Positions 6,375 to 44,805 of a DNA stretch of 64,000 nt are shown here, piece by piece; position 1 is the first letter of the stretch; the number at the start of each line of letters is the position of its first letter. Location of the stretch: contig NZ_MVIJ01000008.1 in assembly GCF_002086735.1 (NCBI RefSeq), positions 1-64,000 of the forward strand, in the 5' to 3' direction. The notes under the pieces are model-generated. The model saw only the letters and a list, made by a program, of their open reading frames with translations. It was not told the origin of the DNA and searched no databases. The DNA comes from Mycobacterium scrofulaceum. Its GTDB lineage: Bacteria; Actinomycetota; Actinomycetes; Mycobacteriales; Mycobacteriaceae. The translations under genes and the position numbers were made by a program.

Positions 6375-7615
6375 CAAGCGTTCGCCTTCATCGTGGGATC
6401 GTCGGAGTCGTACCGGCCGGAGGCGCCGCTGCCGTTCGTCGGGTGCACGTCGGATGGCGGCTGGTGCTCGGCGGCAGCCTCCAGCCCGGCGGTCAGGTCG
6501 CCCTGCCATTCGGCGTTGACGTTCTTGTGGTCGACCTTGACCTTGCGCGACCTGATGTAGATGGCGACCGAGGTCGCGACCAGCAACCCGAAGCCGACGA
6601 CGGCGCCGGGGTAACCGCCGATCAGGTGGACGATCCAATAGGTGACCGCGCCGACCAAACCGGCCAGCGGCAGCGTCACGAGCCAGGCGACGCCCATGCG
6701 GCCGGCCACGCCCCAGCGCACCTCGCCGCCGGGCTTGCCGAGCCCGCTGCCCAGCACCGAACCGGTGCAGACCTGCGTCGTGGACAGCGCGTAGCCGAAG
6801 TGGGTGGACAGCAGGATGACCGCGGCCGAGGACGACTCGGCGGCCATGCCTTGGGGCGACTGGATCTCGACCAGCCCCTTGCCCAGGGTGCGGATGATGC
6901 GCCAGCCGCCCAGGTAGGTGCCCGCCGCCATGGACAGTGCGCACGCAACGATGACCCACAGCGGCGGCATCGACTCGTTCCTGCTGACCGAGCCGTAGGA
7001 CATCAGCGCCAGGAAGATGATGCCCATCGTCTTCTGCGCGTCGCCGGTCCCGTGCGCCAGCGAGACCAGCGACGCCGAGCCCCACTGGCCGTAGCGGAAC
7101 CCGGCCTCGGTGCGTCCAGTCTCGAGGCCACGGGTGATCCGGTAGACCAGCCAGGTCGCGATCGCCCCGACGGCGATGGCCAGGATCGCGGCCACCACTG
7201 CCGGGATGAGTACGTGGGACACCAGGCCCTTCCAGATCACCCCGTGTCCACCGACGGCTGCGATCGTGGCGCCGACGATGCCGCCGATCAGCGCGTGCGA
7301 CGAGCTCGAGGGGATACCGAGGAGCCAGGTCAGCAGGTTCCACACGATGCCGCCGACCAGGCCGGCGAACACCAGCTCCAGCGTCACGATGTGCCCGTCG
7401 ATGAGGCCCTTGGCGATGGTGGCGGCGACGGCGGTCGACATGAACGCACCCACCAGGTTCAGCACCGCGGACAGCGCGACCGCCGCCTTGGGCTTGAGCG
7501 CGCCGCTCGCGATGGAGGTCGCCATCGCGTTGCCGGTGTCGTGGAAGCCGTTGGTGAAATCGAAAGCGAGTGCCGTGATTACGACAATGCTGAGGAGGAA
7601 CAATTGGATGTTCAC
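6374..7615 (-). CDS. pitA: Low-affinity inorganic phosphate transporter PitA
   Basis: PitA proteins import metal-phosphate with protons across the inner membrane. The 413-residue protein has about ten helices in two inverted repeats. Each repeat carries a Pit signature: DFTNGFHDTGNAMATSIASG at residues 19-38 and AHGTGDAQKTMGI around residues 190-202. The long hydrophilic loop before the last third and the polar C-terminal tail are usual. The gene leads an operon with the small membrane protein at 6075-6374. The 93 bp upstream are non-coding and probably hold the promoter. Orthologous position: Rv0545c. Confidence 0.94.
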   Translation of the reverse strand: MNIQLFLLSIVVITALAFDFTNGFHDTGNAMATSIASGALKPKAAVALSAVLNLVGAFMSTAVAATIAKGLIDGHIVTLELVFAGLVGGIVWNLLTWLLGIPSSSSHALIGGIVGATIAAVGGHGVIWKGLVSHVLIPAVVAAILAIAVGAIATWLVYRITRGLETGRTEAGFRYGQWGSASLVSLAHGTGDAQKTMGIIFLALMSYGSVSRNESMPPLWVIVACALSMAAGTYLGGWRIIRTLGKGLVEIQSPQGMAAESSSAAVILLSTHFGYALSTTQVCTGSVLGSGLGKPGGEVRWGVAGRMGVAWLVTLPLAGLVGAVTYWIVHLIGGYPGAVVGFGLLVATSVAIYIRSRKVKVDHKNVNAEWQGDLTAGLEAAAEHQPPSDVHPTNGSGASGRYDSDDPTMKANA

Positions 7616-7708
7616 AGCGCCTGATTCTCGTAGTTGGGAGATTCGATTGTCGAACGGTGGACCGGTCGAATTGCGGGTGTACCTCGACTTGTCGTCAGAT
7701 GTTAGCCC

Positions 7709-8119
7709 CTAGTTAACCGGCCGTTTCGCCTGATCACCGCGGGTGTCGCGGCGTAACGGATGCTCCGGCGGTATCTGCACGAAAATCAGCGTGATCCCGT
7801 CGGGGTCGATCACGTGCATCTCGTAGAGGCCCCACGGTTCCTGGCGCGCCTCGCGGGCGATCGGCACGCCCCGGCCCCGCAGCTCGGCCTGCGTCGCCTC
7901 GATGTCGCGGACCTGCAGCCACAGCGCGCCGGGGAAGGGGCCCCGGGAGTGGTCCGGGGAGCCGTACCCCGCCAGCTCCAGCAACGACTGACCGGCGAAA
8001 AAGACTGTGCCCCCGCCGTATTCGCGGAATATCGCGAGCCCGATCTGGTCCCGGTAAAAGCTCAACGACTGCTGATAGTCCGCCGGCCGGAACAGCACCC
8101 GGCTGGCCAGGATCTCCAT
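7709..8119 (-). CDS. Glyoxalase/VOC-superfamily protein (Rv0546c-like)
   Basis: A 136-residue single vicinal-oxygen-chelate unit with paired beta-alpha-beta-beta-beta modules. It begins MEILASRVLFRPADYQQSL and carries potential metal ligands in the central YGGGTVFFAGQSLLELAG strand and the VIDPDGITLIFVQIPP C-terminal strand (Asp-Pro-Asp-Gly turn typical of the family). Members act as lactoylglutathione lyase-like isomerases, dioxygenases or resistance proteins; which applies here is not visible. It is followed on the same strand after 93 bp by pitA, and its ATG is 27 bp from the stop of the SDR gene upstream. Confidence 0.82.
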   Translation of the reverse strand: MEILASRVLFRPADYQQSLSFYRDQIGLAIFREYGGGTVFFAGQSLLELAGYGSPDHSRGPFPGALWLQVRDIEATQAELRGRGVPIAREARQEPWGLYEMHVIDPDGITLIFVQIPPEHPLRRDTRGDQAKRPVN

Positions 8120-8146
8120 GGCGTCGTGTCTATCACACGCGCCGGG

Positions 8147-9043
8147 TCAGCTGCCGTTTTCACGGTTGGGTTGGATGCTTTGCCGTTGCATGATCGCGTT
8201 GACGAAGCGGGGACCGAAGGTGTCCAGCGCCTTGGCGGCGATGGCCATCCGCGGCGCGATCCGCACCGGCCGGGTGCGGGCGGCGGTGAGCATCCATTCG
8301 GCTGCCTCCTCCGACGTGAGCGCCGGCATGCCCTCGTAGGCCTTCGTCGGCGCGATCATCGGCGTGGCCACCAGCGGGTAGTACAGCGTCGTCGAGTGCA
8401 CACCCTTGTGGCCCCACTCGGTTTCCACGACCCGGCTCACCGCCGACAGCGCCGCCTTCGACGCGTTGTAGACCGCGAACAGCGGCGACGCCTCGGAAAG
8501 CACACCCCAGGTGGAGACGTTGATGATGTGGCCGTCGCCGCGCTCGAGCATCCCGGGGGCCAGGCCGCGGATCAGCCGCAGCGGCGCGTAGTAGTTGAGC
8601 ACCATGGTGCGCTCGACGTCGTGCCATCGCTCGAGCGATTCGGCCAGCGGCCGGCGGATGGAGCGGCCGGCGTTGTTGATCAGGATGTCCACCCCGCCGA
8701 GACGCTTCTCGGCGTCGGCGACCAGCGCGTCGACGGCGTCCATGTCGGAGACGTCGCACGGCATGGGCAGCGCGGTGCCGCCCGCCGCGGTGATCCGCTG
8801 CGCCAGCGTGTCCAGCAGTTCACGCCGCCGGGCGACGACCGCCACCGTCGCGCCCTCGCGGGCCAGCAGTTCGGCCGCCGCCTCGCCGATGCCCGACGAC
8901 GCCCCGGTGAGCAGGATGCGCTTCCCGTTGAGGTCGACCGGCTTGATCGCGGGCCGGTTGACCAGCACCTGCGGGGCCATCGGGGGGCGCATGGTGGCCA
9001 GGACGAGCTGATCGGTCAGGCGGCGCAGGGGACTCTTGCTCAC
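8147..9043 (-). CDS. Short-chain dehydrogenase/reductase (Rv0547c-like)
   Basis: This 298-residue classical SDR has a roughly 38-residue N-terminal extension before the Rossmann turn LLTGASSGIGEAAAELLA. NNAGRSIRRPL (about residues 126-136) and the catalytic pair Tyr/Lys in VYNASKAAL (about residues 199-207) follow, with the preceding INVSTWG serine. The C-terminal third is longer than in minimal SDRs. Substrate and cofactor preference cannot be read from the sequence with confidence. It lies between the VOC gene and menB on the same strand, but the palindrome at 9076-9095 separates it from menB. Confidence 0.88.
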   Translation of the reverse strand: MSKSPLRRLTDQLVLATMRPPMAPQVLVNRPAIKPVDLNGKRILLTGASSGIGEAAAELLAREGATVAVVARRRELLDTLAQRITAAGGTALPMPCDVSDMDAVDALVADAEKRLGGVDILINNAGRSIRRPLAESLERWHDVERTMVLNYYAPLRLIRGLAPGMLERGDGHIINVSTWGVLSEASPLFAVYNASKAALSAVSRVVETEWGHKGVHSTTLYYPLVATPMIAPTKAYEGMPALTSEEAAEWMLTAARTRPVRIAPRMAIAAKALDTFGPRFVNAIMQRQSIQPNRENGS

Positions 9044-30398: not shown

Positions 30399-31013
30399 TC
30401 AGGACGGCTCCATCAGCACGTCGACGTGCAGCGGCGCGCAGCGGTCGATCAGCCAGATCTGGTCCGCGGGGCTGGCGAAGATGCGCGCATGCGACGGGTC
30501 CTGGGCGAACGCTTTCTCGCACCGGTCGCCGAAGAAGACGTAGGCCTTGGCGTCGTTGCACTGCCGCGACATCCACACCAGCCCGTCCAGCCCGGCGCCG
30601 TGCGCGGCCTCGGCCCACCGCACCGTGGAGGCGTAGCTCGACGCCGGGCTCGCGGTGAGGTCGGCGGCGGTGACCTTGAGGCGGCGCAGCCCGGTGCCGT
30701 GCAGCACGCCCAGGCGCGCGGCGCGGGTCACCCGCAGCCGGACGAGCACCTTGTCCGCGTATTGGTCGTAGGGCAGCAGGCCGCCGTCGACGGGGATGTC
30801 GTGCAGCAGCGTCTCCGCGATCGCCGCGTCCTCGGTGTCGGCGGCGTACATGATCGGCACCACCGGGTCGCCGAAGAAGCCGAAGCGGGTGCGTGAGCCG
30901 ATGCCGGGGTTGAAGTCGGTGGCGGTGCGCGTCGCCGACAGCACGCGGTAGAGCCGGTGGCCCGCCGGCAGGGTGGCGATGGCCGGATCGAAGGGCTCGG
31001 GTGGTCGCCTCAC
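30399..31013 (-). CDS. RES-domain toxin
   Basis: A 204-residue RES-domain protein. GHRLYRVLSATRTATDFNPG (Arg and Tyr in the conserved opening), RFGFFGDPVVPIMYAADTEDAAIAETLLHD and a later YASTVRWAEAAHG region match the family's R-E-S pattern. Characterised RES toxins degrade NAD+ or ADP-ribosylate targets. GTG 31013 overlaps the antitoxin stop (GTGA), so the two are translationally coupled; an adjacent GTG at 31016 is possible. Residues upstream in the long ORF overlap the antitoxin and are excluded. The whole module is absent from this locus in M. tuberculosis, as I recall it. Confidence 0.87.
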   Translation of the reverse strand: MRRPPEPFDPAIATLPAGHRLYRVLSATRTATDFNPGIGSRTRFGFFGDPVVPIMYAADTEDAAIAETLLHDIPVDGGLLPYDQYADKVLVRLRVTRAARLGVLHGTGLRRLKVTAADLTASPASSYASTVRWAEAAHGAGLDGLVWMSRQCNDAKAYVFFGDRCEKAFAQDPSHARIFASPADQIWLIDRCAPLHVDVLMEPS

Positions 31014-31516
31014 CACGAGACGGCCAGGGCCTCCGCGGCGACCGCGACGACGCGGTCCGGATCGGTGGCGAGGCGGTCCACGGGCCGCTCGGAGTCCAGA
31101 TAGGTGGTCGGCGAGCACAGCCACTGCACCAGGCCGGCCTCCGACCAGCCGTTGCCCTCCGCGACCCCGCGCAGCACGGCGATGGCCGGCAGCGGTTTGC
31201 CGTCCGGGCCGAACTGGAAGCCGGGGTAGGCGAGGTAGCTGCCGCGGCGCACGGCGACCAGCGCCTTGTTGCGATGGGCGGTGGTGGCCAGGTTGCGTGG
31301 CGCGCTGGACCGCGACCCCATCCGCTTCCCGGCGTCGGTGCTGCTGAGCATCCCGAACTCGGCCTCGATGCGGGCGTACAGGTTCTGCTCGGCCTGCACC
31401 GCCCGCGCGACGGCCGGCTCGGTGTAGACGGCGACCGACGACAGCGCGTCCCCCACCGCGCGGGCGCTTTCGCGCAGCCGCTCGTGCGCGGTGGCCAGCT
31501 CGGCGACGGTGGTCAT
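31010..31516 (-). CDS. Xre/MbcA/ParS-family antitoxin of the RES toxin
   Basis: A 168-residue partner. The C-terminal half (from about residue 90) looks like the MbcA/ParS toxin-binding domain: RGSYLAYPGFQFGPDGKPLPAI, then GWSEAGLVQWLCSPTTYLD. The N-terminal half is helical and probably binds DNA, though I see no textbook helix-turn-helix. ATG 31516 has a TGGAGC sequence 7 nt upstream; the ORF also allows GTG 31546, which lies inside the operator dyad. The gene precedes the toxin as is usual. Regulation: a perfect 10-bp inverted repeat stands just upstream. Confidence 0.83.
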   Translation of the reverse strand: MTTVAELATAHERLRESARAVGDALSSVAVYTEPAVARAVQAEQNLYARIEAEFGMLSSTDAGKRMGSRSSAPRNLATTAHRNKALVAVRRGSYLAYPGFQFGPDGKPLPAIAVLRGVAEGNGWSEAGLVQWLCSPTTYLDSERPVDRLATDPDRVVAVAAEALAVSW

Positions 31517-32211: not shown

Positions 32212-32295
32212 GGCAGGTTGCCCGAGCGGCCAATGGGAGCGGACTGTAAATCCGTCGCGAAAGCTTCACAGGTTCGAATCCTGTACCTGCCACCA
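32212..32295 (+). tRNA. tyrT: tRNA-Tyr (anticodon GTA), CCA encoded
   Basis: Acceptor stem GGCAGGT pairs with ACCTGCC (32285-32291), followed by discriminator A and an encoded CCA. The anticodon GTA is in ACTGTAAAT. The variable arm is long, as in a class II bacterial tRNA-Tyr, and the T arm reads GGTTCGAATCC. It is divergent from the YajQ gene and lies 8 bp from the stop of the convergent DMT transporter. Confidence 0.97.
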
Positions 32296-32302
32296 CAGTT
32301 CG

Positions 32303-33223
32303 TCAGAGCGTGGGCTTCACCGCGTTCGCCTCGTCGGCGATCCTCACGTCGCGCCCGGCGCCCGCCGACACGGTCGCGGCCTCGCCGCGGGCCAGGCCCA
32401 CGGTGGCGATGATCACCAACGCCGCCGCCACGGCCAGCACCACCCAATCGAAGCCGTGGGCGTCCAGCGTCTCGCCGAGCACGGTGATCCCGAGGACCGC
32501 GCCCACGATGGGCTTGGCGGCGATGATCGTCGGCAACGAGGCGGTCAACGCGCCTGCGCGGTAGGCCGACTGATGGAAGATCATCCCGGCCGCCCCGCAG
32601 AACACCCAGCCGTACAGCTCGGGCCTGGTCCACAACTGTTCGGGGTTGTGTTCGAGGATGTCGACGACACCCTTCATCAGCACCGCGAACGCCGCCAGCA
32701 ACGAACCGGCGACCGCCGCGAGCAACAACGCGGCCACCGGGCGGTCCGACCAGATCCGGGCGCCCAGCAATCCCAGCAGCAGCGGCGGGCCCATCGCGAT
32801 GGCCACGATCAGCCACACGTGGGCCGCGGCGCGCTGCTGGCCGCCGGTCGGGTCGCCGACCGCGATGACGACCACCAACGCGGCGGTCAGCGCCACCGCC
32901 CACACCCACTCCGCGCGGGTGACCGGATGGCGGCTCATCCGCGCGTAGATCGGCAGGGCGAACAGCAGCGCGGTCACCTGCAGGGACATCACCAACAGCA
33001 CCGAGCCCTTGTCCAGGGCGGCGGCCAGCAACACGTAGCTGGCGATGTCGCCGAGACCGCCCATCCACCAACGGGTGTCGCGGAGCAGCATGCCGAAGAG
33101 CGCCAGGTGGCCGACCGGCTTGTCGGTGACCTCCTGCGCGGATCGCTGGCGGACGACGTTGCCGATCGCCGACGCGAGCGCGGCGCACAGCGCAAGCACC
33201 GCCGCCATATCAGCGCTCGACAT
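32303..33223 (-). CDS. EamA/DMT-superfamily membrane transporter
   Basis: A 306-residue protein with about ten helices in two repeats, beginning MSSADMAAVLALCAALASAIGNVVRQ. Typical DMT features are the SYVLLAAALDKGSVLLVMSLQVTALLF helix pair and, in the second half, ASLPTIIAAKPIVGAVLGITVLGETL (the conserved Pro-containing loop and Glu). Such carriers export amino acids or metabolites; the substrate is unknown. It stands alone, convergent with tRNA-Tyr. Confidence 0.85.
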   Translation of the reverse strand: MSSADMAAVLALCAALASAIGNVVRQRSAQEVTDKPVGHLALFGMLLRDTRWWMGGLGDIASYVLLAAALDKGSVLLVMSLQVTALLFALPIYARMSRHPVTRAEWVWAVALTAALVVVIAVGDPTGGQQRAAAHVWLIVAIAMGPPLLLGLLGARIWSDRPVAALLLAAVAGSLLAAFAVLMKGVVDILEHNPEQLWTRPELYGWVFCGAAGMIFHQSAYRAGALTASLPTIIAAKPIVGAVLGITVLGETLDAHGFDWVVLAVAAALVIIATVGLARGEAATVSAGAGRDVRIADEANAVKPTL

Positions 33224-33306: not shown

Positions 33307-34176
33307 TCAAAGCGGGAACTTGGTGCCCGTGAGCTGCTCGGAGAGGGCCCACAGCGCCGCGGCGGTGCCCGCCCGCCTGGCCGGCCAGTTACGCCACGTC
33401 GGCTGGGTGTGGCCGTACAGACCGAAGCGCGGGCCGACGAAGGTGTCGCCCGGCAGGTCCTGCGACACCGCGTACAGCGTCTGCCGGGCACCGAAGTCGG
33501 CGTCGGTGGACACGACGCGGTCGACGGCCAGCACCGCCGCGTCACCGAGCCTGCGGCCGGAGTTGCCCTGCAGGTTCGTGTGCGACCAGCCGGGGTGGGC
33601 GGCCAGCGCGCGCAGCGGGGAGCCGGCGGCGTCGAGGCGCCGCTGCAGTTCCCTGGTGAACAGCAGGTTGGCCAGCTTGGACTGGCTGTAGGCCAGCCAC
33701 GCCGAGTACGGGCGGGACCGCCAGTTCAGGTCTTTGAGGCTGATGTAGCCGAAGTGGTGCATCAGCGACGACACCGTCACCACCCGGTCGGTGAGCCGGG
33801 GCAGCAGCAGGTTGGTCAGCGCGAAGTGGCCCAGGTGGTTGGTGCCGATCTGGCCCTCGAAGCCGTCGGCGGTCACCGCGTGTTGGGTGGCCATGATGCC
33901 GGCGTTGTTGACCAGCACGTCGACCGTCGCCATCTCGTCGGCGAAGCGCCGCACCGAGCCCAGGTCCTGCAGGTCGAGCTGGCGTACCTCGACGTCGCCG
34001 GGCATCCGCTCGGCGGCCGCCTTCCCCTTCTCCGTGTCCCGCACGGCCAGGACGACGCGGGCGCCGGACCGGGCCAGTTCGCGGGCGGTGACCTCGCCGA
34101 GTCCGGCGTTGGCCCCGGTGATCACGACGGTGCGTCCGGCGAAGGAGGGCAGGTCTGCTGCGGTCCAACCAGGCAT
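33307..34176 (-). CDS. Retinol-dehydrogenase-like SDR
   Basis: A 289-residue classical SDR: VVITGANAGLGEVTARELARSG (residues 17-38), LDLQDLGS, VNNAGIMAT, and LAYSQSKLANLLF with Tyr/Lys near residues 170-174. The TGANAGLG turn and NNAGIM are those of the retinol dehydrogenase/WW-oxidoreductase-like group, such as mycobacterial Rv0439c. The C-terminal LSEQLTGTKFPL is also group-typical. ATG 34176 was preferred; the upstream in-frame part lacks similarity to the family. Divergent from the diacylglycerol kinase-like gene by 59 bp. Confidence 0.87.
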   Translation of the reverse strand: MPGWTAADLPSFAGRTVVITGANAGLGEVTARELARSGARVVLAVRDTEKGKAAAERMPGDVEVRQLDLQDLGSVRRFADEMATVDVLVNNAGIMATQHAVTADGFEGQIGTNHLGHFALTNLLLPRLTDRVVTVSSLMHHFGYISLKDLNWRSRPYSAWLAYSQSKLANLLFTRELQRRLDAAGSPLRALAAHPGWSHTNLQGNSGRRLGDAAVLAVDRVVSTDADFGARQTLYAVSQDLPGDTFVGPRFGLYGHTQPTWRNWPARRAGTAAALWALSEQLTGTKFPL

Positions 34177-34235: not shown

Positions 34236-35255
34236 ATGGCCGACGGAAGCACACCTGGACGCCGGCGGATGTACCTCGGGGTCATCGTCAATCCGCTCGC
34301 GCGCCGGAATCGCGGCGCCCGCGGTGACCGCGCCGCCGAGCTGCGCCGCATCGTCGGGCCCTGGGGTGAAGTGCACGAAACCGCCTCGACCGAGGACCTC
34401 GGCAAGACCCTGGACCAGCTCCATCCGCGGGTCACCCACCTCGTCGGCGACGGCGGCGACGGCGCGCTGCACTGGCTGATCAACGAGATCGAGCGCTGCG
34501 AGAGCGACCCGGAGCGCTGGCCGACGTTCGTGCCCACCAACGGCGGCAGCGTCAACGCCGTCGCCCGCAAGGCGCGGGTGCGGGGTCGGCCCGACGCCGT
34601 TATCCGCGCGCTGGCGGCCGCCGCCGAGGCGGACCGGCCGCCGCCCGAGATCCGCCTCGACACCCTGCGGCTGGACGGCCACACCGAAGACGGCGCGGCG
34701 TTCCACCGCCTGTGCTTCGGGCTGGCCGCCGGCGGTGTCGGAAACCGGTTCTACGACATGTATTACGGAAAGCCCGATCACGGCCGCAGCGAGGTCGCCC
34801 GGGTGATCGGCCGCTCGTTCCGCGACTACCTCGCCACCAAGGTCGGCCGCTCGCCGGACGCCAATTACGCGTCGGTGCTGTTTGCGCCCACGCGCGCCCG
34901 GGTCGTCATCGACGGCGAGGAGGTGCCGACGCGCACGCACCGCCTGCTGCACGCCGGCGCCATCGACCTGCGGATCGGCGGCCCGTTCCGGCTCTTCCCG
35001 AAGGCCGAGAGCCCCGGCGCGCTGCATTTCCAGGCCGGCGAGGTGCGGCCCTCGCGGATCGTCGTGCGGCTCCCGTCGCTGCTCACCAGCGGCACGGTCC
35101 GGGGCCACCGGGTCCGCGACGTCAACGGCCGCGAGATGGTCATCGAGGCCGAGGGGGAGCCGTTGTCGCCGATCATCGACGGCGAGCGGTTCGTCGGCAT
35201 CACCCGTTTGGTGGCCCGCGCGGGCCCGCTCATCCGCGTCGCACAGACCGGCTGA
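34236..35255 (+). CDS. Diacylglycerol-kinase-catalytic-domain protein
   Basis: A 339-residue lipid/sphingosine kinase-like protein. The nucleotide-binding segment is VIVNPLARRNRG near residues 15-26, followed by the catalytic GDGGDGALHW loop near 73-82 and the PTNGGSVNAVARKA region near 101-114. The C-terminal half forms the beta-sandwich domain with GAIDLRIGGPFRLFPKA. It probably phosphorylates a lipid at the inner membrane; the usual GTxND motif is changed to TNGGSVN, so the activity is uncertain. A GTG at 34227 is an alternative start. It ends before a hairpin and the long non-coding stretch. Confidence 0.82.
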   Translation: MADGSTPGRRRMYLGVIVNPLARRNRGARGDRAAELRRIVGPWGEVHETASTEDLGKTLDQLHPRVTHLVGDGGDGALHWLINEIERCESDPERWPTFVPTNGGSVNAVARKARVRGRPDAVIRALAAAAEADRPPPEIRLDTLRLDGHTEDGAAFHRLCFGLAAGGVGNRFYDMYYGKPDHGRSEVARVIGRSFRDYLATKVGRSPDANYASVLFAPTRARVVIDGEEVPTRTHRLLHAGAIDLRIGGPFRLFPKAESPGALHFQAGEVRPSRIVVRLPSLLTSGTVRGHRVRDVNGREMVIEAEGEPLSPIIDGERFVGITRLVARAGPLIRVAQTG

Positions 35256-35315
35256 CTTCCGTATCTCAGTAGTTCAGCATCGGCCCCGTGGCATTGCGGT
35301 CGCGGATATGACCCG

Positions 35316-35333
35316 CCCGCCCCGAATGGCGGG
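35316..35333. terminator. Hairpin after the diacylglycerol kinase-like gene
   Basis: CCCGCC (35316-35321) and GGCGGG (35328-35333) enclose a six-base CCGAAT loop, 60 bp after the stop codon. It is a compact GC-rich stem-loop without a U-tract, acceptable as a mycobacterial-type terminator. Confidence 0.5.
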
Positions 35334-35713
35334 CCCCGACTCCACGCGATCGGGTACGCGTATGCCGTTTGCCGATCGGATGCGAAATGGCGCTCGGACC
35401 CCGCATGAACGTGCCTAATGATAATTCATTAATGGCGTAAATGCGTATGTCAGTATCCGTGCGCTTACGAAGTGCAATCCGGATATCTATGCAGCTAGAT
35501 GGAGCTCCTGACATACTGAAATCCGGACATGCGGAGATGACTGGCACGGAATCTGCGCCGTTGGATCAGCCTATCCTGTGAGATTAATGTGCGGTCCGTA
35601 AAATGCCCGATATCGCTTTGCTTAGCGTCCGTCCGCGACCTACATTGTCGTTATCAATTGATCCCAAAAGTTTTTATCGCTCAAAGTGAACCCGAAAGGG
35701 GGTGGCTCCTGCG
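35334..35713 (+). promoter_or_regulatory. AT-rich non-coding regulatory region before the FAAL-ACP-TR operon
   Basis: About 380 bases contain no credible gene. From about 35400 the composition is visibly AT-richer than anywhere else in the window. Within it lie the perfect palindrome TAATGATAATTCATTA (35416-35431), a 9-bp inverted repeat GTATGTCAG/CTGACATAC (35445-35453 and 35508-35516), and a direct repeat AATCCGGAYAT (35476-35486 and 35520-35530). The palindrome resembles a Fur box with one added base. The AGGGGG at 35696-35701 is the likely ribosome-binding site for the ATG at 35714. Confidence 0.65.
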
Positions 35714-38700
35714 ATGGAGACGCTCATTGGTCATCTGCACATGAGGGAAGCCCTGACGCCGGACAAGACCCTCTTCCGGTTCGTCGACGACGAGGGCCGC
35801 GAGCAGGAGCACTACACGTACCAGGGTTTCGCCGAGCGGACGCGCGAGTTGGCCGCATACCTGACGGCGGAGGCCAGGCTGCGCCCGGGAGACCGCGCGC
35901 TGCTGGTCTACCCGCCCGGTCTGGAGATGGTGGCGGCGTTCTACGCGTGCGCGCGCATCGGGGTGATCGCCGTGCCGGTCAGCCCGCCGCTGCCGATGTC
36001 GTTCGAGTCCGGGCTGGCCAAGCTCGCGTTCATCGCGCGCGACTGCCAGGCCAGGGCGGTGCTGTCGACCAAGCAGTTCGAGTACGACTACCGCCTGATG
36101 CTCAACCACCTCGACGGCGGGTCGCCCCGGGAGGACGACCGGCGGCCCCCCGAACTGCCGTGGTTCGGAACCGACGGCACGCAGGACTTCGGCGGCACCC
36201 CGGTGCCCGACACCCCCGGGCCGGTGCTCTTCCTGCAGTACACCTCCGGCTCCACCAGCGACCCCAAGGGCGTGGTGGTCAGCCACGCCAACGTCATCGC
36301 CAACGCCTCGGCGTTCACTAAAGACGAGGTCCTGGTCAGCTGGTTGCCGCAGCACCACGACATGGGCCTGATCTCGGCCTACCTGTTCATCCCGCTGATC
36401 GGCGGGACCACGCACGCGATGTCGCCGCTGGACTTCCTCAAGCGGCCGTCGTCCTGGCTGCGGCTGATCAGCGACGTGCGCGCCACCCACACGCCGGTGC
36501 CCAACTTCGCCCTCGAGCTGTGCCTGCGCGAGGACAAGCTGCCCACCTCGGAGCTGAAGGGCATCGACCTGAGCAGCCTGGAGAGCATCGTCGTCGGCGC
36601 GGAGCCGTTGCGCGCCGGCACCTTCGCGCGCTTCCGGGAGCGTTTCGCGCCCTACGGGCTGGAGCCCAACGCGCTCACCGGCGCCTACGGCATGGCCGAG
36701 AACACCCTGATCGTCTCGCTTCGCGGCCGCCAGACCCTGGCGCTCAACAAGCGCGCGCTGGAGAACAACCTCGCGCGGGTCGAGAAGGCCCAACCGCAGA
36801 ACAGCAACCAGGCCCCGGTGGTGAGCTGCGGGAAGCCCATCGACGGCAACGTCGTGCGGATCGTCGACCCGCAATCCGGGGTGGCCCTCGGCGAGGGCCG
36901 GGTCGGGGAGGTGTGGCTGGACGGGCCGTCCAAGGGCGGCGGCTACTGGAACCGGCCCGGGCTCACCGCGGAGGCCTTCGCGGCCCGCATCCCCGGCGAT
37001 GACGACCACACCTATCTGCGGACCGGCGATCTCGGCTTCCTGTACGAGGGCGAGCTGTTCGTCTGCGGCCGCAGCAAGGACCTGATCATCGTGCGCGGCG
37101 TCAACTGCTACCCCTCGGACATCGAGGGCATCGTCGAGCGGTCGGCCGTCCAGGTCCGCGGCGGCTGCGTCGCCGCCTTCGCGGTGGAGCGCGACGAGCG
37201 GGAAGTGCTGACGGTGGTGGCCGAGGTCCGCGACGAGCATGCGCTGCCGGACGGCAAGGCGCTGGCGCGCGCCATCCGCCGGCACGGCCACATCGACCCG
37301 CACACCATCGTGTTCGTGCCGCCGCACAGCATTCCCAAGACCACCTCGGGGAAGATCCGGCGCTCGTCGACGCGGCAGCTCTGGCTGGACGGCGAGCTGC
37401 CCGTGCTGTCGGCCTACACGCATCGGCCCCACGACCTGCCGGACGCGGAGCGGGGCCCGCTGGACCGGTTCCGCAACCTGATCGAGAGTTACGACCTGAC
37501 GGGCGAGGAGGACTGCTCCTTCGCCGATCTCGGCATCGACTCGCTGGCGCTCGCGGAGCTGCGCTCCGATCTGCAGGCCCTGCTGGAGGAGCACGGCGCC
37601 GGGGAGCTGGCCGAGGAGGTCAACACGCGCCTGCTCCAGCGACTGACGGTGGCGGAGTTCTTCGCGCTGATGCGGCAGTTCGGTGAGGGGTCCGGGCAGC
37701 CGCTGGACGCGCTGCGCCGGGCGCTGGACCAGATCTCGGCGGAGTACGAGGCGTACGAGATCGCACGGATGCGGGCCGACGCCCAGCTGCCCCTGCCGGC
37801 GCTGCCGCCGGCGCGGCCGGGCGCGCCCAGCGACGTCCTGCTGACCGGCGCGACCGGGTTCCTGGGGCCGTTCCTGGTCGCCAGCCTGCTGGGCCGGACG
37901 TCGTACACCGTCCACGCCCTGATCCGCGCCACCGACGAGGCCCACGGACTGGACCGGATCGTCGCGTCGCTGCGCAAGGCCCGGCTGTGGTCCCAGGCGC
38001 TGGAAGCCGAGGTGCGCAAGCGGGTGCGCGTGGTGTGCGGCGACCTCGCCGAGCCGCACCTGGGCCTCGGCGCGCCGGGATTCCAGCGCCTGGCCGAGGG
38101 CGTCGACGTCATCGTCCACAACGGCGCCCTGGTCAACTACGTCCGCACCTACGACGCCCTGCGGCCCGCCAACGTGGCCGGCACGCACGAGCTGCTCCGG
38201 CTGGCCATGACCGCCCACCGCAAGGCCTTCCATCTGGTCTCGTCCACCTTCATCTACGGGTGGAGCGTCAAGCCGGTGGTCGGGGAGTCCGACGCCAACC
38301 TGGAGATGAACGCCCTGGACTTCGGCTACTCGCAGACCAAGTGGGTGGCCGAGCAGCTGGCCTTCGCCGCCCAGCGGCAGGGGCTCGACGTGCGCATCTT
38401 CCGGCCCTCGCTGATCTCACCGACCGGCGCGGGCTTCGGCAGCCAGGATGACATCCTGGTGCGCACCGTGGCGTTCATGATCGAGCACGGCGTCGCCGCC
38501 AACGCGCTCAACCAGCTCAGCCTGCTGCCTGCGGACCTGATCGCCGACCACGTCGTCGCGCTGATGGACCTGCCGGCCGACGCGGGCAACGTGTTCAACA
38601 TGACCGCGGACGACTACTACAACATGACGGACATCACCCGGGTGCTGTCCGAGCGCTACGGCTACCGCTTCGAGTACCGCGACATTGGATCGTTCGCCGC

Positions 38701-38953
38701 CGAGATGAACCGGCGGTGCACGCCGCGCGACCCGATCTACCCGCTCGTCGACTTCCTCACCCGCTCGGCGGACAAGATCGCGGCGATGCGGGACAAGCGC
38801 TACGGCAACACCCAATACCAACGTGCGCGCTCGCTGGCGGACGTCCGGCTGCGGGAACCGGCGCTGACCGAGACGGTCGAGAATCTCGTCCGGTTCTTGC
38901 GGAGTGAGGGCCTGATCACCGAGGCTGAGGCCGAGGCGCAACGCAGTGCGTAA
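35714..38953 (+). CDS. FAAL-ACP-thioester reductase megaenzyme
   Basis: A 1,079-residue, three-module protein. Residues 1 to about 570 are a fatty acyl-AMP ligase: FLQYTSGSTSDPKGVVVSH near 173-191, TGAYGMAENT near 322, RTGDLGF near 436 and TTSGKIRR near 543. About 590-660 is an acyl carrier domain with GIDSL near 607-611 (phosphopantetheine Ser). About 707 to the end is an NAD(P)H thioester reductase: LLTGATGFLGPFL near 709 and FGYSQTKWVAEQ with Tyr/Lys near 872-876. It should activate a fatty acid as acyl-AMP, load it on its own carrier and release an aldehyde or alcohol. It is shorter than carboxylic acid reductases and opens like FAALs. GTG 35702 is an alternative start. It heads a four-gene unit. 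Confidence 0.9.
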   Translation: METLIGHLHMREALTPDKTLFRFVDDEGREQEHYTYQGFAERTRELAAYLTAEARLRPGDRALLVYPPGLEMVAAFYACARIGVIAVPVSPPLPMSFESGLAKLAFIARDCQARAVLSTKQFEYDYRLMLNHLDGGSPREDDRRPPELPWFGTDGTQDFGGTPVPDTPGPVLFLQYTSGSTSDPKGVVVSHANVIANASAFTKDEVLVSWLPQHHDMGLISAYLFIPLIGGTTHAMSPLDFLKRPSSWLRLISDVRATHTPVPNFALELCLREDKLPTSELKGIDLSSLESIVVGAEPLRAGTFARFRERFAPYGLEPNALTGAYGMAENTLIVSLRGRQTLALNKRALENNLARVEKAQPQNSNQAPVVSCGKPIDGNVVRIVDPQSGVALGEGRVGEVWLDGPSKGGGYWNRPGLTAEAFAARIPGDDDHTYLRTGDLGFLYEGELFVCGRSKDLIIVRGVNCYPSDIEGIVERSAVQVRGGCVAAFAVERDEREVLTVVAEVRDEHALPDGKALARAIRRHGHIDPHTIVFVPPHSIPKTTSGKIRRSSTRQLWLDGELPVLSAYTHRPHDLPDAERGPLDRFRNLIESYDLTGEEDCSFADLGIDSLALAELRSDLQALLEEHGAGELAEEVNTRLLQRLTVAEFFALMRQFGEGSGQPLDALRRALDQISAEYEAYEIARMRADAQLPLPALPPARPGAPSDVLLTGATGFLGPFLVASLLGRTSYTVHALIRATDEAHGLDRIVASLRKARLWSQALEAEVRKRVRVVCGDLAEPHLGLGAPGFQRLAEGVDVIVHNGALVNYVRTYDALRPANVAGTHELLRLAMTAHRKAFHLVSSTFIYGWSVKPVVGESDANLEMNALDFGYSQTKWVAEQLAFAAQRQGLDVRIFRPSLISPTGAGFGSQDDILVRTVAFMIEHGVAANALNQLSLLPADLIADHVVALMDLPADAGNVFNMTADDYYNMTDITRVLSERYGYRFEYRDIGSFAAEMNRRCTPRDPIYPLVDFLTRSADKIAAMRDKRYGNTQYQRARSLADVRLREPALTETVENLVRFLRSEGLITEAEAEAQRSA

Positions 38954-38981
38954 CCGTGCCTAACGACTCAGGGGGTTAACC

Positions 38982-39890
38982 ATGTTCACCGTCGACGACC
39001 AGGCGACGGGTCCGCATGACGCGTCGCTCGACCACGAGCGCATCGTCCTGCAGGCGCGTGACGTCGACTTCGACTGGGCGACGCTGCCGTTCTACTACGT
39101 GCCGGGCGAGCCGTTCACCACCCACTTCTGCAACGTCCTGCACCTGCTGCTGCCGGCCGGCGAGGAGTTCATCGTCGACGCGTTCAAGAACACGCTGCCG
39201 CTGATCAAGGACGATCAGCTGCGGCTGGACGTGCAGGGCTTCATCAGCCAGGAGGCCATGCACTCCCAAGCGCACGCGGGGGTGCTCGATCACTTCGCGG
39301 CCAAGGGGGTGGACGTCACGCCGTTCACCGACCAGATGTCCTGGCTGTTCTCCCAACTCATCGGCGACCGGCCCGGGTGGGGGCGGCGGCGACGGCAGAG
39401 CTGGCTGCTCGAGCGGGTGTCGATGGTGGCGGCCCTCGAGCACTACACCGCGATCCTGGGCGAATGGATCCTCGACACCCCGCAGCACGACGCGTTCGGC
39501 ACCGACCCGGTGATGCTGGACTTGCTGCGCTGGCACGGCGCGGAAGAGGTCGAACACAAGGCGGTCGCGTTCGACACCATGAAGCACCTGCGCGCCGGGT
39601 ACTGGCGGCAGGTGCGCACGCAGTTGCTGGTGACGCCGGCGCTGCTGTGGTTGTTCGTCCGCGGCGTGCGGTTCATGTACTCGGTCGACCCGTACCTGCC
39701 GCCCGGCACCAAACCGCGCTGGCGCGACTACTTCAGCGCGGCGCGGCGCGGCCTGGTGCCCGGGCCGTTCCAGTTCCTGCGGGTCGTCGGCGCCTACTAC
39801 ACGCCGAGTTTCCACCCGTCCAAGCTGGGCGGGGTGGGCCGCGCGGTCGACTACCTGGCCCGCTCACCCGCGGCCCGAGCGGCGCATTGA
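38982..39890 (+). CDS. Ferritin-like putative diiron enzyme (PF10118, 'metal-dependent hydrolase')
   Basis: A 302-residue mostly helical protein. Potential metal ligands fall in a ferritin-like pattern: EE at 61-62, QEAMH (Glu 91, His 94), LEHYT (Glu 153, His 154) and HGAEEVEH (Glu 188/189, His 192), i.e. ExxH twice plus two further acidic residues. PF10118 proteins are named predicted metal-dependent hydrolases, but these ligands fit a diiron oxidase equally well. The ATG is 28 bp after the megaenzyme stop with AGGGGG upstream. A ferredoxin-type reductase in the same unit favours an oxygenase or desaturase role. That role is inference; no substrate is known. Confidence 0.82.
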   Translation: MFTVDDQATGPHDASLDHERIVLQARDVDFDWATLPFYYVPGEPFTTHFCNVLHLLLPAGEEFIVDAFKNTLPLIKDDQLRLDVQGFISQEAMHSQAHAGVLDHFAAKGVDVTPFTDQMSWLFSQLIGDRPGWGRRRRQSWLLERVSMVAALEHYTAILGEWILDTPQHDAFGTDPVMLDLLRWHGAEEVEHKAVAFDTMKHLRAGYWRQVRTQLLVTPALLWLFVRGVRFMYSVDPYLPPGTKPRWRDYFSAARRGLVPGPFQFLRVVGAYYTPSFHPSKLGGVGRAVDYLARSPAARAAH

Positions 39891-39909
39891 GCTCCGGGGC
39901 CACACACCA

Positions 39910-40815
39910 ATGACTCAGTCCCGCACCGTAATCGCGTCCGACGGCGTGTCCCTGGCCGTGCATGCCCGCTCGGAGATCGACCGTGCGCGCCCGACGATTC
40001 TGGCGATCCACGGCTACCCGGACAACCACCACGTGTGGGACGGGGTCGCCGAGGAGCTCGGTGGCCGCTTCAACTTCGTGGCCCTCGACGTGCGCGGCGC
40101 CGGTGACTCGTCCAGGCCAGCGGGACGCGCGGGATACCTTCTGCCCCAACTAGTTTCGGACATCGGCGCGGTGATCGACAGCCTCGGGGTGGACCGGGTG
40201 CACCTGATCGCCCACGACTGGGGTTCCATTCAGGCCTGGGCGGCGGTCACCGACGGCAACGTGATGCCCAAGGTGGCGTCGTTCACGTCGATCTCCGGCC
40301 CGCACCTGAATTACGCGGGCAAGTTCCTGCGGTCCGCGCGCACGCCGCGCGGCGTGTTCGACGTGCTCAAGCAGGCCCTGGCCTCCTCGTACATCTGGTT
40401 TTTCCTGTGCCCGGGGTTGCCGGAGCTGGCGATCTGGTCGCGCATCAGCGTGAGCGTCTTCGCCGCCGTGGAATTCATCGGCCGGCCCCGCGGCGAGCGC
40501 CGGCGGCGCGCGGCCGGCACCCGGTCGACCCGCGACTACCTCAACGGGCTCAACCTCTACCGCGCCAACATGCCCGCGCCGTTCCTGTTTCCCGGAGAGG
40601 ACCTGCCGCGGACAACCGTCCCGGTGCAGGTGTTGGTGGCGCGCAAAGACTACTTCGTGTCGCCGCCCCTGCAGCGGTTCACCGGTGCGATACCGCCGCA
40701 CGGCAGGGTCGTCCCGATCGAGGGCGGACACTGGGTGGTGTCCTCCCATCCCGAGGTCATCGCCAAGCTCACGGCCGAGTGGGTCGACCAGGCCGGCGAC
40801 ATCGGGCAGGTGTAG
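39910..40815 (+). CDS. EphD-like alpha/beta hydrolase, probable epoxide hydrolase
   Basis: A 301-residue alpha/beta hydrolase. HGYPDNHHVWDGV near 34-46 gives the oxyanion-hole motif HGxP, and the nucleophile elbow is AHDWGS with Asp 103 instead of Ser. An Asp nucleophile, together with GGHWVVSSHPE near the C-terminus for the His, is the epoxide hydrolase/dehalogenase pattern. The sequence resembles the hydrolase half of mycobacterial EphD (Rv2214c, by memory), without its SDR half. It starts 19 bp after the ferritin-like gene, so co-transcription is likely. An epoxide made by that enzyme would be a natural substrate; this is inference. Confidence 0.83.
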   Translation: MTQSRTVIASDGVSLAVHARSEIDRARPTILAIHGYPDNHHVWDGVAEELGGRFNFVALDVRGAGDSSRPAGRAGYLLPQLVSDIGAVIDSLGVDRVHLIAHDWGSIQAWAAVTDGNVMPKVASFTSISGPHLNYAGKFLRSARTPRGVFDVLKQALASSYIWFFLCPGLPELAIWSRISVSVFAAVEFIGRPRGERRRRAAGTRSTRDYLNGLNLYRANMPAPFLFPGEDLPRTTVPVQVLVARKDYFVSPPLQRFTGAIPPHGRVVPIEGGHWVVSSHPEVIAKLTAEWVDQAGDIGQV

Positions 40816-40819
40816 GACA

Positions 40820-41902
40820 ATGACTGTGGCACAAACGATTTGGAGTAACAGACCCGCCGACCTGTACGGTCGCCGCAAGCGCGACCGGCTCTACACGGCG
40901 TTGTGGGGGGTGGGCACCCTGTTCGGCGGTCTGGCTTCCGCGTCGCGGTGGGACCCGTCGCGCGTCGTACCGGTGCGGCGGACAACCACCGCGGTGATCA
41001 CCGAGCGCGAACTCCTCACGCCCGACGTGGTGGCGCTGACGCTCGCCGACGCGCAGGGCGGATTGCTGCCCTCCTGGACTCCCGGAGCGCACATCGATAT
41101 TCGCCTGGCTTCGGGCCGCCGCCGCCAGTACTCACTGTGCGGTCCGCCCGGGCGGCGCACCGACTACCGCATCGCGGTGCGCCGGATCGCCGACGGCGGC
41201 GGCGGCTCGATCGAAATGCACGACAGCTTCGGTGTGGGCGACACGATCGAGTTCGAGGGCCCCCGCAACGCGTTTTATCTCGTCACCGATGAACGCCAGG
41301 TGCTGTTCGTGATCGGCGGCATCGGCGTGACACCGATCCTGCCGATGGTCTCATTGGCCCGGCAGCGCGGAATCGATTGGCGCGCCGTGTATGCCGGGCG
41401 CAGCCGGGAGTACATGCCGCTGCTCGACGAGTTGCTCGCGGTGGACCCGGACCGGGTGACCGTGTGGGCCGACGACGAGCGCGGCCGAGTGCCCACCGCC
41501 GCGGAACTGCTCGCCGCCGCCGGGCCGGCGACGGCCGTCTACGTGTGCGGCCCGACGGCCATGCTGGAATCGGTGCGCACCGCGCGCGACCAACACGCAA
41601 ACGCGCCGCTGCATTACGAGCGCTTCGGCCCGCCGCCGGTCATCGACGGCGCCCCGTTCGAGCTGGAGCTCGCCCGTTCCCGGCGCGTGCTCAGCGTGCC
41701 GGCGAACCGGTCGGCGCTCGACGTCATGCTCGACGGCGACCCGACGACCGCGTACTCGTGCCAGCAGGGCTTCTGCGGCACCTGCAAGGTGAAAGTGCTT
41801 GCCGGGCAGGTCGAGCGGCACGGACGCGCCGCCGAGGGCGACGGCGAAATGCTGGTCTGCGTCTCCCGGGCGCACGGCGAACGCCTGGTGATCGACGCCT
41901 AG
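40820..41902 (+). CDS. FNR-type ferredoxin reductase with C-terminal 2Fe-2S domain
   Basis: A 360-residue electron-transfer protein of the phthalate dioxygenase reductase class. The flavin domain has RQYSLCGPP near residue 93, the NAD(P)H domain has VIGGIGVTPILPMV near 160 and YVCGPTAMLESV, and the C-terminal ferredoxin binds a plant-type 2Fe-2S cluster through YSCQQGFCGTCKVKVLAG and the later MLVCVSRA. It has a 40-residue N-terminal lead typical of Rv3230c, the reductase that serves the desaturase DesA3 in M. tuberculosis. The ATG is 5 bp from the hydrolase stop. It is the best candidate electron donor for the ferritin-like enzyme of the same unit. Its stop overlaps the convergent CDF gene by 4 bp. 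Confidence 0.9.
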   Translation: MTVAQTIWSNRPADLYGRRKRDRLYTALWGVGTLFGGLASASRWDPSRVVPVRRTTTAVITERELLTPDVVALTLADAQGGLLPSWTPGAHIDIRLASGRRRQYSLCGPPGRRTDYRIAVRRIADGGGGSIEMHDSFGVGDTIEFEGPRNAFYLVTDERQVLFVIGGIGVTPILPMVSLARQRGIDWRAVYAGRSREYMPLLDELLAVDPDRVTVWADDERGRVPTAAELLAAAGPATAVYVCGPTAMLESVRTARDQHANAPLHYERFGPPPVIDGAPFELELARSRRVLSVPANRSALDVMLDGDPTTAYSCQQGFCGTCKVKVLAGQVERHGRAAEGDGEMLVCVSRAHGERLVIDA

Positions 41903-43860: not shown

Positions 43861-44805
43861 ATGCATCAGGCTAAAGGGTTGGGGGGCGTGGTCTGTGTGG
43901 CCGCACTCCTGGTGGCGGCATGCTCGAGTCACCCGGCGCCGCCGGCATCGTCGCCTGCCTCCCCGTTGGCCGATTCCACCCGATCAAATGCGTTGGCGGC
44001 CATGCACGGCGAGGCGCTCGCCCACGCGAAGTATCTGGCGTATGCCACCCAGGCGCAGCAGGCCGGGCGGACGCAGGTGGCGCGGGACTTCACCGACGCC
44101 GCCCAGACCGAGCACATGGATCACTTTGCCCGCGAGGCCGACCTGGTCGGGCTGGGCGGCGACATCGCGGCCAATCTGCGCGACGCGATCAACGGTGAGA
44201 CGAACGAGACCGACACCATGTACCCGGGCTTCGCCAGGCAGGCCACCGCTGAAAACGACCCGGCCGCGGCATCGGCTTTCAGCGAGATCGGCGTCGATGA
44301 GGCCACTCACCTCAAGGACTTCCAGGCGGCACTCGACGCGGTCAGCAACCCCGGCAGCGGCGCGTCGGTGCCGCCCGGTGCAACGCCGGTGCCGGTCGCC
44401 ATCACCGCCGGGCCCCCACGGTCGTCCGGGGCCACACTGGCGAATCTGCGCACGGCGATGCAGGGTGAGGCCTTCGCCTACGCCAAATACATGCGCTACG
44501 CCGATCAGGCGCGACGAGACGGCAACCCGGCTGTGGCGCAGCTCTTCACGAACACCGCGAACTTCGAGTTGAACGAGCATTTCGCGATGCTGGCCACGCT
44601 CGCCGGGCTGGTGTCCACCGACACCAACGCGAACCTGCGAGAGGCGGTCAACGGCGAACAACACGAGGCCGATGTCATGTATCCCGACTATGCCCGCCAG
44701 GCCGATCAGGCGGGAAACACCAATGCCGCCAACCTGTTCCGGGAGATTGCCGGTGACGAGAAGACCCACCAGCAGACGTTTCAGAAGGCGCTCGCCGCGT
44801 CATGA
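43861..44805 (+). CDS. Lipoprotein with two rubrerythrin-like (ferritin-fold) domains
   Basis: A 314-residue exported protein. The signal peptide ends at the lipobox LVAACS (Cys at residue 21), so it should be lipid-anchored outside the inner membrane. Two homologous helical domains follow, about residues 40-160 and 190-310. Each begins with a LRTAMQGEAFAYAKYMRYA-like helix, contains an EHF or EHMDHF metal-ligand helix, then NGE(T/Q)xExxxMYPxxARQA, and ends EIGVDEATHLKDF or EIAGDEKTHQQTF (ExxH). A linker of Pro/Gly residues joins them. The ATG at 43861 is preferred to TTG 43855 because GAGG stands just upstream. A peroxide or iron-handling role is inferred. Confidence 0.87.
   Translation: MHQAKGLGGVVCVAALLVAACSSHPAPPASSPASPLADSTRSNALAAMHGEALAHAKYLAYATQAQQAGRTQVARDFTDAAQTEHMDHFAREADLVGLGGDIAANLRDAINGETNETDTMYPGFARQATAENDPAAASAFSEIGVDEATHLKDFQAALDAVSNPGSGASVPPGATPVPVAITAGPPRSSGATLANLRTAMQGEAFAYAKYMRYADQARRDGNPAVAQLFTNTANFELNEHFAMLATLAGLVSTDTNANLREAVNGEQHEADVMYPDYARQADQAGNTNAANLFREIAGDEKTHQQTFQKALAAS

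Follow-up and report, generated by a model that had tools for sequence, protein, structure and literature searches.

A conserved mycobacterial gene block with a predicted PF10118 diiron oxygenase and a candidate route of carrier-bound fatty acid oxidation

Soluble acyl carrier protein (ACP) desaturases, such as the mycobacterial DesA, are ferritin-like diiron enzymes that oxidise acyl chains bound to a carrier. A related logic is described, in excerpts of PMC12101540, for the CylA/CylB/CylC (cylindrocyclophane) and NocL/NocM/NocO systems: there, an AurF-type dimetal enzyme functionalises a chain that is attached to a carrier. Here we analyse a block of genes in a stretch of 64,000 nucleotides of Mycobacterium scrofulaceum (NCBI RefSeq assembly GCF_002086735.1, contig NZ_MVIJ01000008.1, positions 1 to 64,000; the whole stretch is called the window). 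The block encodes a protein with fatty acyl-AMP ligase, carrier and thioester reductase domains (FAAL-ACP-TR), a PF10118 protein predicted to be an oxygenase, an epoxide hydrolase of the EphD type and a flavin/2Fe-2S reductase. An earlier note, made from the sequence of this stretch, had suggested that these four genes form one route of lipid oxidation. The proposal at its centre, that a FAAL loads a carrier substrate on which a ferritin-like dimetal enzyme then acts, has a published precedent in the Cyl and Noc systems (PMC12101540, as far as the excerpts go). We tentatively propose, with somewhat less than even confidence, that the unit makes an oxygenated fatty aldehyde or alcohol by oxidation of a carrier-bound fatty acid.

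Conservation of the block in Mycobacterium

The four genes are all encoded on the + strand, with the gaps of 28, 19 and 4 bp that had been reported before. Full-length FAAL-ACP-TR was found, at an E-value of 1e-150, in 59 of 297 Mycobacterium genomes, and the oxygenase at an identity of at least 82% occurs in exactly the same 59 genomes. A second class of the oxygenase (class II, 70–80% identity) is present in 89 genomes, such that 35 genomes hold both classes and 113 hold either; the two classes were divided at 82% and above versus 80% and below once the identities were known. Per genome, the best two candidates were scored for FAAL-ACP-TR and up to seven for the oxygenase. For the order, with 298 genomes searched, full-length matches to FAAL-ACP-TR occur in Mycobacterium only, and outside this genus, at an E-value of 1e-90, only the FAAL part was matched, up to residue 625.

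The earlier note had made its proposal depend on the conservation of the block in other genomes, which was indeed observed. We observed the order FAAL-ACP-TR, oxygenase, hydrolase, reductase in 55 of 61 loci from the 59 genomes, counting as complete one locus with an interrupted gene (L033 of genome G029). Among the six others, one locus has no hydrolase, one is a lone second copy of FAAL-ACP-TR and four are cut by contig ends. Named carriers of the block include M. parascrofulaceum, M. nebraskense, M. europaeum, M. interjectum, M. colombiense and M. lepraemurium; in the last, both block and class II genes (L176, L193) appear to be broken up or truncated as called. Between the window and seven relatives, the ratio of nonsynonymous to synonymous substitution rates was 0.04–0.11 for the oxygenase, 0.16–0.20 for FAAL-ACP-TR, 0.11–0.22 for the reductase and 0.19–0.33 for the hydrolase, and judging from these ratios all four genes are under purifying selection. 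Furthermore, the pairwise distances of the block genes correlate with each other (0.57–0.85, 50 loci). Because of the shared order and the purifying selection, we conclude that the FAAL-ACP-TR block is a conserved mycobacterial gene unit and more than a chance arrangement.

The four genes do form a block; however, the unit is not restricted to them, as at least one more gene likely belongs to it. A gene for a lipid kinase lies upstream of FAAL-ACP-TR in 57 of the 61 loci, and it is present in 59 of the 297 genomes, namely in 58 of the 59 that hold FAAL-ACP-TR and in one other (G182); the 17 kb fetched from this last genome showed no further gene of the block. Among 41 relatives, the kinase occurs in four, those having the block. 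Its GGDG motif is invariant in 55 of 55 homologues; the match to the model TIGR00147 (YegS/Rv2252/BmrU) gave 12.6 bits and thus stays below the cut-off of 118.65. The block as first delimited is therefore too narrow: the unit reaches upstream to position 34269 and, in most loci, further to the genes of a short-chain dehydrogenase/reductase (SDR) and a DMT transporter (in the window, to 32303).

Predicted enzymes and the route they could form

The domains assigned before were all recovered (AMP-binding/FAAL, TIGR01746, PF10118, alpha/beta hydrolase, flavin/NAD/2Fe-2S reductase), the carrier being the weakest. In FAAL-ACP-TR, the FAAL domain spans about residues 1–570 (with Lys547), the carrier contains Ser610 (codon 37541–37543) and the thioester reductase domain starts at about residue 711 (Ser844, Tyr872, Lys876); the roles of these residues are presumed from the families. 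The AMP-binding domain was matched with an E-value of 3e-66, and models of the FAAL type rank high among its NCBIfam matches. For the N-terminal 570 residues, the FAAL model PRK05850 scores 357.6 bits, higher than PRK07768, which is named a CoA ligase (296.1), and PRK06187 (152.9), and no single FAAL model reaches its curated cut-off. Residues 7–572 align with residues 12–576 of PDB entry 3kxw, which we take to be a Legionella FAAL, and the domain thus has no large deletion. The carrier match (PF00550, E-value 8e-4, 20.0 bits) is just below the cut-off of 20.8, and its structure model (pLDDT 66.9) was too poor for a useful fold match to be found. Nonetheless, all of 56 homologues keep Ser610, the phosphopantetheine attachment serine in a DSL motif, and likewise Ser844, Tyr872 and Lys876 of the reductase domain, which matches TIGR01746 with 246.4 bits (cut-off 213.35). 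We rejected an identity as carboxylic acid reductase, since the equivalog model NF041592 gave 137.7 bits, far below its cut-off of 1300. In G029, the FAAL-ACP-TR gene (L270, about 7570–8846) is a broken copy, interrupted by about 1.28 kb; this insert contains stop codons and is thus no intein. The lone second FAAL-ACP-TR (76% identity; L146, G036:C123, 3456–10767) has no oxygenase beside it and is followed by a 931-amino-acid exporter of the MMPL family and a DMT transporter, which points to biosynthesis.

The PF10118 protein is most likely an AurF/CylC-type diiron oxygenase, as predicted from its motifs and its modelled structure. The model has a helical diiron-type fold, with CmlI as the best Foldseek match. 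Nine active-site positions (Glu; Q/D-ExxH; Glu; HxxD/E-ExxH), read against those reported in excerpts of PMC12101540, are kept in 34 of 35 distinct PF10118 proteins, the exception being a fragment. These proteins, which include that of the window, derive from 40 loci that had been collected by similarity to the whole protein or to the Pfam model; 39 of the loci gave a protein. In the window, the predicted metal-site residues are Glu61, Gln90-Glu91-xx-His94, Glu153 and His185-xx-Glu188-Glu189-xx-His192, in agreement with the putative diiron enzyme of the earlier note; the metal itself is presumed. The same positions are also invariant in a set of 60 taken from the best 80 relatives and in 11 paralogue rows, though the motifs themselves had played a part in the selection of these rows (a motif filter chose the 11, among which one gene occurs twice).

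The kinship with AurF is not confirmed by sequence profiles. The alignment of PF10118 with the AurF family profile PF11583 by hhalign was not significant (probability about 2%, with shallow profiles), and one PF10118 place of the source genome matches PF11583 at 3.7e-5, below the cut-off. A sequence search of the PDB returned nothing or two weak unrelated matches, and the acyl-ACP desaturase family PF03405 was not matched by the window protein at an E-value of 0.001. Membrane anchoring is not claimed, given a Kyte-Doolittle mean of only 1.42 for the 19-residue stretch of highest hydrophobicity. At an E-value of 0.001, 2889 relatives of the window protein were found, and the source genome (G000) has 11 PF10118 matches, ten of them over the cut-off and some in short neighbouring pieces on contig C139. 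The family name, metal-dependent 'hydrolase', looks wrong; in the open-access literature searched, PF10118 came up in one paper and COG3687 in none.

The hydrolase had been noted as epoxide hydrolase-like, which is supported and can be specified as the EphD type. Residues 5–295 match the N-terminal half of the model PRK05855, a fusion of epoxide hydrolase and SDR (EH-SDR), with 299.9 bits, where the cut-off of 455 is for the whole fusion. The C-terminal SDR of EphD is missing in the window and retained in 16 of the 61 block loci. The best PDB match is the epoxide hydrolase 5ng7, and Asp103, Tyr161, Tyr217, Asp247 and His274, aligned with this structure, are invariant in 54 of 54 homologues. 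We take them to be the nucleophile (Asp), the histidine, the acid and the two cap tyrosines; such a pair of cap tyrosines is typical of epoxide hydrolases. Haloalkane dehalogenase was rejected as an identity, because its matches are weaker and the protein has the cap tyrosines of 5ng7. The reductase has the flavin, NAD and 2Fe-2S parts proposed before, but by its matches it resembles phthalate dioxygenase reductase and P450-fused reductases more than a classical ferredoxin-NADP reductase, the best PDB entries being 6laa (P450-fused reductase), 7ylr and 2pia (phthalate dioxygenase reductase), with E-values from 1e-52 to 1e-49. Its Cys314, Cys319, Cys322 and Cys347 are invariant in 55 of 55 homologues.

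As the catalytic residues are invariant in 54–57 homologues, each of the enzymes is predicted to be active, and a route through all of them can be drawn. The FAAL domain would load a fatty acid onto the carrier in cis. The predicted oxygenase, fed by the flavin/2Fe-2S reductase, would then likely epoxidise or hydroxylate the chain; that it acts on the carrier-bound rather than the free chain is proposed by analogy with CylA/CylB/CylC and NocL/NocM/NocO. The conserved hydrolase suggests epoxidation, and it would likely open a presumed epoxide intermediate to a diol. Release, as an aldehyde or alcohol, would fall to the thioester reductase domain, and the co-occurring kinase, which suggests a phosphorylated end product, may phosphorylate the product so released. 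Both the order of these steps and the pathway itself we infer.

Two other activities of the PF10118 protein were considered. The FAAL-ACP-TR could make a fatty aldehyde that the diiron enzyme and its reductase turn into a hydrocarbon, that is, the oxygenase could be an aldehyde-deformylating oxygenase. A potentially aldehyde-making reductase domain indeed adjoins a predicted diiron protein and an electron supply, and 6d9f from Kitasatospora, described with aldehyde deformylating oxidase activity, appears at Foldseek rank 31. However, this match is poor (TM 0.26), the epoxide hydrolase would have no role, and the oxygenase and reductase recur elsewhere without FAAL-ACP-TR, which makes deformylation improbable. 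Still less probable is a CylC-like halogenase that chlorinates the carrier-bound chain, with the Asp-nucleophile hydrolase removing or using the chloride. Its motif would fit, since QExxH, with Gln in place of the Asp of AurF, is reported for CylC-type halogenases in excerpts of PMC12101540, and Gln90 is kept in 34 of the 35 proteins. This glutamine is, however, general in PF10118 and not specific to the block. Furthermore, the hydrolase has the two cap tyrosines expected of an epoxide hydrolase.

The core without FAAL-ACP-TR

To describe the neighbourhood of the oxygenase we use the best 80 of 588 relatives, 34 from other genera and 46 mycobacterial, found by six peptide patterns of which two contain metal motifs. 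In the other genera, the reductase follows within two genes of the oxygenase in all 34 loci, and an EphD-like hydrolase lies at most three genes away in 25 (directly before in eight, two or three genes after in 17); 19 of the 34 loci have the EH-SDR fusion. The mycobacterial loci have the hydrolase between oxygenase and reductase in 43 of 46 cases. A flavin monooxygenase-like gene (about 490 amino acids) is found at most three genes from the oxygenase in 10 mycobacterial and five other loci (including L179, L183, L185, L188, L192, L194, L219 and L222). In class II mycobacterial loci, for instance L039, L043 and L045, the core is located between ald and dapB; from the gene order only, we presume that their oxygenase and reductase are Rv2777c and Rv2776c of M. 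tuberculosis.

Since oxygenase and reductase recur in other genera without FAAL-ACP-TR, the oxygenase, reductase and hydrolase are probably an older core. FAAL-ACP-TR together with the kinase looks like a later addition that would give this core carrier-bound substrates and a reductive release. In a tree of 54 oxygenases, all FAAL-linked proteins fall into one clade (support 100/95), together with two rows cut by contig ends. The tree needs three changes of label: L174 and L175, in the FAAL-linked clade, are labelled as without FAAL-ACP-TR, and their contigs end just upstream. A single clade fits one joining of FAAL-ACP-TR, and the co-occurrence thus reflects the retention of one association, not repeated gain. 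Such a single event would also fit if the lipid genes of the block had come together by chance, or were merely regulated together, and shared no pathway, and the 458 bp between kinase and FAAL-ACP-TR as well as the lone FAAL-ACP-TR copy would agree with that. Nevertheless, we consider this highly improbable, as the gaps within the block are short, its order and its genomes coincide as described above, and the gene orders of the core differ in other genera.

The main doubt about oxidation on the carrier comes from the same comparison. FAAL-ACP-TR is near the oxygenase in none of the 34 sampled loci of other genera, and 31 of the 46 mycobacterial core loci (two of them cut by contig ends) have no neighbouring copy. 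Carrier-bound oxidation may thus not be the original chemistry of the core. The oxygenase, reductase and hydrolase could instead take as substrate a lipid that is free, linked to CoA or part of the envelope, such as an unsaturated or epoxy one, presumably as in the relatives that have no FAAL; FAAL-ACP-TR would then act before or after them on a different molecule, for instance to reduce the acid that results from their action to an aldehyde or alcohol. The loci of other genera that keep oxygenase and reductase (34) and a nearby hydrolase (25) would fit this, as would the mycobacterial class II loci, and EphD modifies epoxymycolates according to excerpts of PMC7998700. On the other hand, all 59 FAAL-ACP-TR genomes also hold the block's own class of oxygenase, and Cyl and Noc provide a precedent for carrier-bound action by such enzymes (PMC12101540, in part). 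We regard this alternative as doubtful but serious, and keep carrier-bound oxidation as the preferred reading.

Layout of the locus and comparison with known systems

The features of the locus are listed in Table 1. The 3' end of the reductase gene overlaps a converging cation exporter gene by 4 bp. A scan of the 458-bp gap for a promoter found no sigma-70-type site.

Table 1. Features of the block and its upstream genes in the window.
Feature	Position	Strand	Evidence
DMT-family transporter, block-linked copy	32303..33208	-	NCBIfam NF038012, 394.7 bits (cut-off 50)
SDR oxidoreductase, block-linked copy	33307..34125	-	PF00106; NCBIfam PRK06197, 267.4 bits (just below cut-off 268)
YegS/DAGK-like lipid kinase, likely fifth gene of the unit	34269..35255	+	PF00781, 29.1 bits (cut-off 23.6)
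Gap between kinase and FAAL-ACP-TR, 458 bp, possible separate promoter region	35256..35713	none	
FAAL-ACP-TR, 1079 amino acids	35714..38953	+	AMP-binding, carrier and thioester reductase matches
PF10118 protein, predicted AurF/CylC-type diiron oxygenase	38982..39890	+	PF10118, 246.2 bits
Epoxide hydrolase, EphD N-half type, SDR half absent, 301 amino acids	39910..40815	+	PRK05855 match
NAD(P)H-flavin-2Fe-2S reductase, phthalate dioxygenase reductase type	40820..41902	+	Domain and PDB matches

SDR and DMT transporters are widespread families, and the block-linked copies are the closest matches to those of the window. Counted as matches anywhere in the fetched stretch, the SDR is found in 54 and the DMT transporter in 52 of 60 FAAL-ACP-TR loci. 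Among 41 relatives, the linked SDR copies have 93, 88 and 80% identity compared to at most 74% for other copies, and the linked DMT copies 92, 77 and 66% compared to at most 64%. At the edge of the block, a tRNA-Tyr gene (32212–32295) directly adjoins the DMT transporter gene. We rejected a genomic island at this site: with flanks of differing length compared, the tRNA lies beside 3 of 19 other loci, and those three belong to near relatives. Further upstream (30399–31516), a RES-domain protein adjoins a weak Xre/MbcA/ParS-like match, a possible toxin-antitoxin pair. Close downstream of the block (44002–44805) lies a protein with rubrerythrin and ferritin-like matches.

If the preferred reading holds, some slow-growing mycobacteria have a hitherto unknown lipid pathway, with a PF10118 enzyme that oxidises chains on the carrier, by the logic of acyl-ACP desaturases and CylC-type halogenases. 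PF10118, called hydrolase in databases, would gain a function, and the EphD-like epoxide hydrolases beside it in several actinobacterial genera would be explained. The wider claim is rather unlikely: that the whole of PF10118 is a large family of diiron oxygenases of the AurF/CylC type that has so far gone unrecognised, and which here functionalises carrier-bound fatty acids and, with FAAL-ACP-TR, hydrolase and kinase, yields a new class of oxygenated, phosphorylated fatty-alcohol lipids. In the open-access literature searched, we recognised no description of FAAL-ACP-TR combined with the oxygenase, an epoxide hydrolase and a lipid kinase.

When the unit is compared to known systems, each shares only some of its parts. 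Acyl-ACP desaturases carry out desaturation, and the window protein gave no match to PF03405 at an E-value of 0.001. The hydrolase is covered by the same NCBIfam model as EphD, and part of the block loci keep the EH-SDR fusion, whereas the window copy has no SDR half and sits in an operon with the oxygenase. The N-oxygenases AurF and CmlI share the fold and the pattern of three His and four carboxylates; however, the profile match is not significant, and the neighbours of the unit suggest a lipid substrate rather than an arylamine. Carboxylic acid reductase of the FadD9 type has the same adenylation-carrier-reductase architecture, whereas the adenylation domain of the unit is FAAL-type. PaaE and phthalate dioxygenase reductase have the same flavin-NAD-2Fe-2S order and cysteine motif, and the window reductase appears to serve the PF10118 protein. 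The Cyl and Noc systems, as excerpted from PMC12101540, share with the unit a FAAL, a carrier and a ferritin-like AurF-type dimetal enzyme with QExxH and HxxD/E-ExxH motifs, PF10118 being likened by these motifs only. They differ in that they are cyanobacterial, halogenate their chain and have separate FAAL and ACP proteins, and the excerpts describe no thioester reductase, epoxide hydrolase or lipid kinase. The parts of the unit are known, as is, from cyanobacteria, the principle of joining a FAAL and a carrier to a dimetal enzyme; what appears new, going by the open-access literature searched, is their combination with a thioester reductase, an epoxide hydrolase and a lipid kinase.

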